DNA from: Acetobacter farinalis
GTDB taxonomy: Bacteria; Pseudomonadota; Alphaproteobacteria; Acetobacterales; Acetobacteraceae
Direction: 5' to 3'
DNA length: 64,000 nt
Assembly (NCBI RefSeq): GCF_011516935.1
Contig: NZ_WOTF01000001.1
Location: forward strand, 496,001-560,000
The position numbers and the translations under genes are program-made. The notes under the pieces were generated by a model. That model saw nothing but the letters and a program-made list of their open reading frames with translations. It was not told the DNA's origin and ran no database searches. Positions 13,997-15,555 of this stretch are shown here, piece after piece. Position 1 is the first letter of the stretch, and each line of letters begins with the position of its first letter.

Positions 13997-14608
13997 TTAC
14001 TCTTCGCCTTCGGCGTGTTCCATCGCACCCATCATATCCGCAATATCCAGCGGCGGCGGCTGAGGAATTTCCTGCCCGTCGCGCTCCAGACGTGCCGTGG
14101 CGGCATTGACTGCGGCGTTCAGGTCCATCTGGCTGCACAGGCCGATGGTCACCGGGTCGCGCGGTTTGATGTTCGGCGTGTTCCAGTGCTGCTTGTCTCG
14201 CACTTTGGCAATGGTGTCTTTCGTGGTGCCCAGCAGTTTGACAATCTGAAGATCATTCAGCTGCGGGAAGTTGCGCAGCAGGAACGCAATCCCATCCGGA
14301 CGATCATGCCGTTTGGCAACAGGCGTATAGCGTGCGCCCTTGGAGCGGCGCTTGACCGGGTTGCTGGTAGCCAGAATTTTCAGCCGTGCGTCCGGGTTGG
14401 CCTCGCAGCGGTGAATTTCTTCCAGCTTGAGCTGGTGGTTGGCAACGGGGTCATACCCCACAATGCCCTGAGCAACCTCACCATCGGCAATAGCCTGCAC
14501 TTCCAGAGGGTGCATGCCGCAAAACTCGGCAATCTGAGTAAAGCTCAGGGCGGTTTTTTCAATCAGCCACACGGCGGTGGCCTTGGGCATCAGCGGTAAG
14601 GTCGTCAT
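13997..14608 (-). CDS. trcR: Cell-cycle transcriptional regulator TrcR (DUF1013)
   Basis: A 203-residue protein of the DUF1013/TrcR family, known almost only from Alphaproteobacteria and linked there to RNA polymerase and cell-cycle control. It begins LPLMPKATAVWLIEKTALSF, with the helix-turn-helix-like FTQIAEFCGMHPLEVQAIADG next, and a second motif around LNDLQIVKLLGTTKDTIAKVRDKQHWN. ATG 14608 has a GGAAG element nearby and matches the usual family N-terminus; upstream in-frame starts to 14740 do not. A hairpin terminator follows. Confidence 0.88.
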   Translation of the reverse strand: MTTLPLMPKATAVWLIEKTALSFTQIAEFCGMHPLEVQAIADGEVAQGIVGYDPVANHQLKLEEIHRCEANPDARLKILATSNPVKRRSKGARYTPVAKRHDRPDGIAFLLRNFPQLNDLQIVKLLGTTKDTIAKVRDKQHWNTPNIKPRDPVTIGLCSQMDLNAAVNAATARLERDGQEIPQPPPLDIADMMGAMEHAEGEE

Positions 14609-14815
14609 TGCTTCCATCCTGTCGGTCGGTCGGCGCTTGCGCAGGCACCGGAGAAACTGGACGGTCCGGAAACCATTCCGAAAGCCCGCGTGCCTGCCGG
14701 CGCGCATCTGTGGCGACGATATGGGGGGAGCGTCCCTCACAGGTCAAGCAGCAAATGTGCTCATTGGAAAAAGGAGGAACCGGGGTTCCTCCTTTTCCCG
14801 CTCTTTAACGCGTGA

Positions 14816-15355
14816 TTACGCCGCGGCCGCGGCGGGCTGGGTGCCGGTGGCTGTTGGCGGGATGGCCTCACCCGGAGTGCCGGAACGCTCCGTGTGCGCC
14901 TCCGGCCCGGAGAAGCTGCCGGCGAGAGTGCCGGAAGAGCTGGAGGATACGGGGATACGGCGGGGCTTGAGGGCTTCCGGCACGATCTGGCGAACAGAAA
15001 TGCGCAGGAGTCCGTTATTCATGTCGGCACCGGTTACTTCCACATGGTCCGCCAGCGCAAAGCGGCGTTCAAAGGCGCGGCGCGCAATCCCGCGATACAG
15101 GATTTCCCCTTCGTTCTGCGGTTCACTGACCCGGCCGGACACGACAAGCGTGTTATCCTGCACAACCAGTTCAATATCATCGGGGCCAAAGCCCGCCACA
15201 GCCATGGTCAGCGCGTAACGGTCGCTCCCCGTTTTGGCGATATCGTAAGGCGGGTAGCTCGGGCTGGCGGTGGTGCGGGCGGCTGTATCCATAACCTGCG
15301 CCAGCCGGTCAAACCCGATGGCGCTGCGGAACAGCGGTGCAAAATCGTAACTCAT
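14816..15355 (-). CDS. Small heat shock protein, Hsp20 family
   Basis: An ATP-independent holdase chaperone of the IbpA/Hsp20 family, 179 residues. It starts with the FAPLFRSAIGFDRL motif common to class A bacterial sHSPs. The alpha-crystallin domain runs from about residue 34 to 130 (AGFGPDDIELVVQDNTLVVSG, in parts), including GILYRGIARRAFERRF. The C-terminal tail is unusually rich in serine, glycine and alanine and lacks an obvious IxI motif. GAGGAGG lies 10 bases before the ATG and is embedded in a ROSE-like hairpin, so heat-controlled translation is likely. Confidence 0.93.
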   Translation of the reverse strand: MSYDFAPLFRSAIGFDRLAQVMDTAARTTASPSYPPYDIAKTGSDRYALTMAVAGFGPDDIELVVQDNTLVVSGRVSEPQNEGEILYRGIARRAFERRFALADHVEVTGADMNNGLLRISVRQIVPEALKPRRIPVSSSSSGTLAGSFSGPEAHTERSGTPGEAIPPTATGTQPAAAAA

Positions 15356-15424
15356 GGTTCAAAAACCTCCTCGTTCAGCAAGGTCTTGCCGTGATGCGCC
15401 CCCTTGAGGCGGGCTGCAGCGGCA
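15356..15424 (-). promoter_or_regulatory. ROSE-like RNA thermometer in hsp20 leader
   Basis: Read on the minus strand, the 5' leader folds as two hairpins. The distal one closes with TGCCG/CGGCA (15387-15391 with 15420-15424) around a GCCC/GGGC stem. The proximal one pairs AAGACCUU and CU, with a bulged G inside a UUGCU motif, against the Shine-Dalgarno AGGAGGUUUU (15362-15387 region). A UYGCU motif opposing the SD with an unpaired G is the hallmark of ROSE elements that control alphaproteobacterial hsp20 genes. The fold is by hand, not by a program. Confidence 0.72.
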
Positions 15425-15476
15425 GGGTGAAGAGGAAAGCCCCGGTATTGGGCACTTGCCTCTGGGCTAAACGTGG

Positions 15477-15509
15477 AAAACCCCGCCCCCTGTTTCAAGG
15501 GGCGGGGTT
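15477..15509 (-). terminator. Rho-independent terminator after rpmE
   Basis: A GC-rich 11-bp perfect stem (15479-15489 with 15499-15509) and 9-base loop, followed on the minus strand by TTTT. It lies between rpmE and the hsp20 leader. Confidence 0.82.
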
Positions 15510-15555
15510 CCGGATTTTTCAACCAGTCTGATCAAGTCAGTCCGGGAAAGGGGGA

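Follow-up and report, generated by a model that had tools for sequence, protein, structure and literature searches.

A putative three-hairpin ROSE-like RNA thermometer in the hsp20 leader of Acetobacter farinalis

ROSE-like RNA thermometers are described in the accessible part of PMC3669281 as elements of two to four hairpins in the 5' leaders of small heat shock genes, in which a U(U/C)GCU motif pairs imperfectly with the Shine-Dalgarno (SD) sequence in the 3'-most hairpin. This thermosensing hairpin contains non-canonical pairs, and its opening upon heating controls translation. ROSE sensing is said to depend on the non-canonical pairs in the accessible text of PMC4166951, which also cites Waldminghaus (2005) for a survey covering over 40 predicted ROSE elements. 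The leader studied here resembles the elements of the Rfam families RF00435 (ROSE) and RF02523 (ROSE_3), described for B. japonicum hspA and for ibpA of Pseudomonas and E. coli, in so far as the accessible descriptions also give a small heat shock gene leader, imperfect pairing of the motif with the SD sequence and upstream hairpins. In Gluconobacter oxydans 621H, a ROSE element upstream of hsp20 gene GOX_RS07835 was predicted with Rfam and no transcription start site was detected for it (accessible part of PMC5756330); it is likewise located before an hsp20 gene of an acetic acid bacterium, but differs from the present leader in being an RF00435 match. FourU thermometers, as far as described in the accessible part of PMC4166951, also sequester the SD sequence in a short hairpin of a heat shock gene leader. 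Assignment to this type was rejected because the leader has no run of four consecutive U residues pairing with AGGA and instead carries CCUUGCU with a bulged G. Within the partial coverage of the literature search no thermometer in an Acetobacter hsp20 leader was found, and an earlier prediction, for example in the survey of Waldminghaus (2005), is possible.

The window, the stretch of 64,000 nucleotides (64 kb) analysed here, contains on its minus strand a gene encoding a small heat shock protein of 179 aa (hsp20; 14816-15355; PF00011, E 1.6e-17). IbpA is the NCBIfam model closest to the product, with a score below the IbpA cut-off. The 5' neighbour is rpmE, encoding ribosomal protein L31 (15556-15786, minus strand; PF01197, E 2.1e-26), and an L31 gene is found upstream in 54 of 56 hsp20 loci. 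Downstream of hsp20, at 13997-14740, lies a gene for a TrcR-family transcriptional cell cycle regulator (PF06242, E 3.2e-63). The structured leader is located in the untranslated stretch between rpmE and hsp20, and this putative leader of about 110 nt very probably represents a three-hairpin ROSE-like RNA thermometer. The whole conserved element (about 15467-15364, minus strand) matched R1, a covariance model derived from 21 Acetobacter leaders with the one of this locus among them, at 85.8 bits (E 4.1e-21); the next-best R1 match within the window reached only 11.5 bits.

All three predicted hairpins are read on the minus strand. Hairpin I (15431-15463) is formed in the predicted fold by AGAGG (15463-15459) and CCUCU (15435-15431) with an inner UGCCC/GGGG stem, which is also present in the RNAalifold consensus, and G15453 is bulged in the predicted fold. 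Hairpin II (15387-15424), indicated by folding and covariation, is closed by UGCCG (15424-15420) and CGGCA (15391-15387) and has an inner GCCC[G]CC/GGGGGC stem. Hairpin III (15365-15384), the presumed thermosensing hairpin, combines the anti-SD sequence ACCUUGCU (15384-15377) with AGGAGGU (15371-15365) around the loop GAACG and contains the SD sequence AGGAGG (15366-15371), 10 nt before the ATG. Its pairs are A-U, C-G, C-G, U-A, U-G, C-G and U-A, with G15379 bulged after the single U-G pair. The DNA on this strand reads TGCCG...CGGCA, AG, ACCTTGCT (15384-15377), GAACG, AGGAGGT (15371-15365), TTTTGAACC and ATG (15355-15353). Hairpins I and II (15463-15387) share a design with the SD hairpin, each having a bulged G next to C-G pairs (UGCCC/GGGG and CCGCC/GGGG). 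The sequence-only reading had described UUGCU paired to AGGAGG with a bulged G before hsp20; this pairing is read directly, and RNAalifold, applied to a MAFFT alignment of the 21 Acetobacter leaders, predicts the same hairpin including the bulge unaided. The second hairpin upstream of it, closed by TGCCG/CGGCA, is present at 15424-15387 as described. The extent given for the element, 15356-15424, was correct in its coordinates and pairing, but left out hairpin I further 5'.

The leader shares three characteristics of the ROSE-like class as given in the accessible part of PMC3669281. It belongs to a PF00011 gene which starts 10 nt after the SD sequence, UUGCU with a bulged G pairs with the SD sequence in the 3'-proximal hairpin, and its three hairpins, of which I and II covary, fall within the required two to four. 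Gene type, hairpin number and motif support the proposed match to the ROSE core described for hsp20 genes. Of the irregularities expected in the thermosensing hairpin, a bulged G and one U-G pair are visible in the sequence. A match to the Rfam ROSE covariance models, which the same reading had put forward as a check, was looked for in the window, in the leader and, with RF00435, in the own genome, and none was obtained: with all Rfam models used, no ROSE model gave a match at gathering score in the 64-kb window or at E<=10 on the leader, and RF00435 had no match in the own genome. The leader is reported by neither RF00435 nor RF02523 and hence is no member of the Rfam families as modelled. 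Refuting the ROSE reading takes both the lack of a model match and the lack of conserved pairing, and it was not reached, since the pairing is conserved in related leaders (see below). The absence of RF00435 from the own genome says little, because none of 14 control genomes was matched either.

With strict filters and 16 candidates scored in each genome, RF00435 matched at least 29 of 249 family genomes, at least 25 of them above the cut-off. Among 190 class genomes there were 5 with a match, and no match exceeded the cut-off. The cmscan search covered the window and 40 other leaders, a set without L004-L058; ROSE_3 gave a sub-threshold match to one of 20 further leaders (L078; 22 bits, E 0.29). 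R1 was set aside as a family-wide search tool, as it matched just 24 of 249 genomes at E<=0.01 (strict filters, 15 candidates scored). The stem in the present leader is ACCUUGCU/AGGAGGU, whereas RF00435 matches in the family (L099-L105) read CCAUGUUGCUC..GGAGGAUAUGG. Many of the RF00435 loci shown stand, judged by eye, before an HSP20-like protein. For 21 of the 29 RF00435 genomes the best hsp20 place was listed as well, and the two places coincided in none (19 on different contigs, 2 far apart). RF00435-type ROSE elements precede other hsp20-like genes in L099-L128, among which L099-L105 are nearly identical across several genera, and several such elements occur on one contig in genomes G106 and G250. 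There are hints that the elements in L099-L128 may have been transferred or duplicated.

Leaders of hsp20 were gathered from the genus and family, and 76 were read, L042 and L075 being one locus. The CCUUGC core precedes the SD sequence in 64 of the 76, a CUGCC version in 11 and neither in one. CUGCC takes the place of UUGCU in L042, L061-L067, L069 and L070; for three of these (L066, L067 and L070) the 38-nt fold has a bulged G, placed by hand one step earlier in the stem, possibly a register-shifted version. To R1, 75 loci were offered regardless of core motif, resulting in 68 matches at E<=1, 3 of which were not hsp20 leaders, and 66 distinct rows. In this open set 95.4% of pair cells were kept compared to 82.8% in shuffles, both-side changes occurred at 18 of 20 pairs, and the covariation score was 0.359 against 0.153 in shuffles, a value reached by none of 500 shuffles and by no slid structure (at most 0.136). 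A stricter set used 61 sources that had been selected for the CCTTGC motif and a limit of E<=0.001, which 18 sources did not reach. Its 43 matches gave 95.4% paired cells versus 85.8%, both-side changes at 11 of 20 pairs and a covariation score of 0.325 versus 0.154. Both alignments were fitted to the R1 structure, which favours that structure in these figures.

Covariation of hairpins I and II is seen in both sets, hairpin II corresponding to helices 2 and 3. In helix 1 (hairpin I) both-side changes were present at 5 of 6 pairs in the 43 rows and at all 6 in the 66 rows. The comparison shows these two predicted upstream hairpins to be conserved by compensatory changes. Hairpin III is paired in 97.5% of cells in the open set and in 98.3% in the stricter set, the latter figure being partly built in because the sources were chosen by the CCTTGC motif. 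Six of its 8 pairs show at least one both-side change in the open set, each in just one or two rows, and in 5 of 43 stricter-set rows the U-G pair is changed to U-A with the pair kept. Comparison of the leaders also shows that the anti-SD sequence CCUUGCU and the SD sequence are able to pair in a short stem from which one G is bulged. The conserved UYGCU/SD pairing in related hsp20 leaders, whose absence the earlier reading had named as one part of its refutation, was looked for and found (CCUUGC in 64 of 76; 97.5% pairing over 66 rows).

The pattern CCTTGCT-N2-14-GGAGGTT occurs once in the own genome of 2.94 Mb, before hsp20, and its reversed control does not occur. Among the 249 family genomes 159 contain it and about 96 contain the reversed control, so that much of this genome count is background. 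Among class genomes it was present in 27 of 190 (the own genome included) versus 35 for the reversed control, which is no excess, and on these counts the idea that the CCUUGCU version has spread beyond the family was considered unsupported. The bare motif was rejected as proof of specificity because of the frequent reversed control; just the position before hsp20 counts. Among the first 150 family motif matches listed, 88 precede a listed hsp20 match, at 4-21 nt from its start. Where the hsp20 of a genome is listed, 88 of the listed motif matches lie before hsp20 versus 14 elsewhere, and the remaining 48 come from genomes without an entry in the first 150 hsp20 places. Among the matches listed, 62 of 150 hsp20 places have no motif match in front.

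A second hsp20 gene in the own genome (L002) encodes a protein that is 39% identical over 131 aa. Its leader carries GUCUCGCU before GGGGAGGC (L002 1359-1380), judged by eye to be a UCGCU core; GUCUCGCU is a separate core facing its own SD sequence, and its G can be bulged. In paralogue leaders from the genus GUCUCGCUC..GGAGG or a near version precedes the SD sequence in 19 of 20, the exception being L096. RNAalifold on the 20 paralogue leaders recovered the first hairpin, covarying and with a bulged G, but predicted no SD hairpin. Folded one by one as 38-nt sequences, 12 of the 20 showed a paired SD sequence and a bulged G (shuffles 3.0%), and ROSE_3 scored 27.5-28.6 bits on 3 of the 20, under the cut-off of 43. 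Upstream of the paralogue loci of relatives (L079-L098), CTTGCG- or GTTGCG-like boxes are found instead of CTTGAA.

Between rpmE and the leader lies a terminator-like hairpin, a 35-nt inverted repeat ending in TTTT (15477-15511, minus strand), which may terminate rpmE; a simple terminator scan did not list it. At its top or loop stands CTTGAA (15499-15494, minus strand), a likely RpoH -35 box, followed after 17 nt by CCACGTT (15470-15476, minus strand), a possible -10 box with a poor match to the published RpoH -10. The RpoH1 promoter reads CTTGAA-N15-16-CCTATAT in the accessible part of PMC4843759; against this consensus the spacing of 17 and the Acetobacter CCACGTT deviate, and some other genera have CCTATTT. 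A CTTGA box is present about 128-153 nt before the start in 56 of 56 hsp20 loci. The stem around it pairs at 9 or 10 of 10 positions in 39 of 47 distinct sequences, with 21 different left arms, and own arms form a mean of 8.9 of 10 pairs versus 7.3 of 10 for arms matched across dissimilar loci. The changes in this predicted stem are compensatory in the relatives. A mean of 13.1 pairs spans the CTTGA box in folds of the 56 loci versus 8.4 in shuffles, with 14 pairs at this locus, and at several loci shuffles do as well (for L047 in 48 of 50). Eight of the 47 sequences have no good stem, indicating wider conservation of the box than of the hairpin. Doubtful, in our view, is the further idea that the rpmE-hsp20 junction acts as one conserved heat-control cassette, with the -35 box in the L31 terminator loop, rpmE transcription competing with hsp20 initiation and the mRNA then being held by the thermometer. 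If true, a single piece of DNA would link growth (transcription of L31) to the defence against heat. A terminator-like hairpin overlapping a heat shock promoter would, if functional, tie hsp20 to ribosome production, an arrangement judged uncommon; no RpoH box in an rpmE terminator was found in a literature coverage that was partial and included few subscription journals.

The leader could have been conserved for mRNA stability or for binding of a protein or sRNA, with RpoH-driven transcription as the sole heat control and an incidental SD hairpin. The CTTGA box in all 56 loci, at about -128 to -153, is in line with this, as is the folding of the full leader: in a 142-nt stretch (the full leader plus 30 nt of coding sequence) ViennaRNA predicted no opening upon heating, the mean unpaired probability of the SD sequence being lower at 55 C (0.22) than at 20 C (0.33). 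Full-leader melting curves were rejected as support for heat opening for this reason. The isolated hairpin showed a weak rise over this range, from 0.04 to 0.22, and with the bulged G removed in silico the SD sequence stayed closed at every temperature (0.00-0.01 unpaired); all these melting figures are to be read with the limit that nearest-neighbour rules omit non-canonical pairs. Control by RpoH alone is nevertheless unlikely, as the anti-SD sequence is itself highly conserved, has kept its pairing with the SD sequence and carries the motif that defines ROSE, and the second hsp20 has a different anti-SD sequence of similar design.

Distinctly improbable is a working alternative register, CCUUG/CGAGG, that leaves the last SD bases free and would mildly damp translation without acting as a switch. 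Within the 20-nt hairpin of this sequence its stability exceeds that of the ROSE register by 0.45-0.75 kcal/mol, and the same stem was picked up by the terminator scan, but relatives with GCAGGAGG or CAGAGAAGG have no CGAGG partner, and 97.5% of cells in the 66 rows retain the ROSE register. Chance complementarity between the SD sequence and an upstream C/U-rich stretch has to be considered as well. About 48% of shuffles pair most of the SD sequence in 38-nt folds, compared to pairing at 43 of 56 loci, and pairing of the SD sequence in a predicted fold was dropped as evidence because shuffles show it over half as often. The motif pattern, too, arises by chance in many genomes. Pairing with a bulged G was seen at 15 of 56 loci (shuffles 2.6%) and at 3 of 20 further loci (shuffles 2.1%). 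The position before hsp20, the conservation and the covariation of the leader make the chance explanation hardly credible.

The ROSE-like thermometer is best read as ordinary in kind; judged from sequence comparison, its lineage and its absence from the catalogue are probably what is new about it. In this model hairpin III would hide the SD sequence at growth temperature; upon heat shock the weak stem, with its bulged G and one U-G pair, would open and ribosomes would load, while hairpins I and II would stay folded and support hairpin III. Translation of hsp20 would in this way be under direct temperature control. Transcription would start from the RpoH promoter with its -35 box in the hairpin loop that follows rpmE, and promoter and thermometer together would place hsp20 under heat control at two levels. 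The remark that fermentation generates heat suits Acetobacter and is no evidence for the thermometer. The results indicate that in acetic acid bacteria and their relatives ROSE-like thermometers are widespread before a conserved hsp20 and were missed by annotation models, and the leader may offer a compact, testable control element for heat-limited industrial strains.
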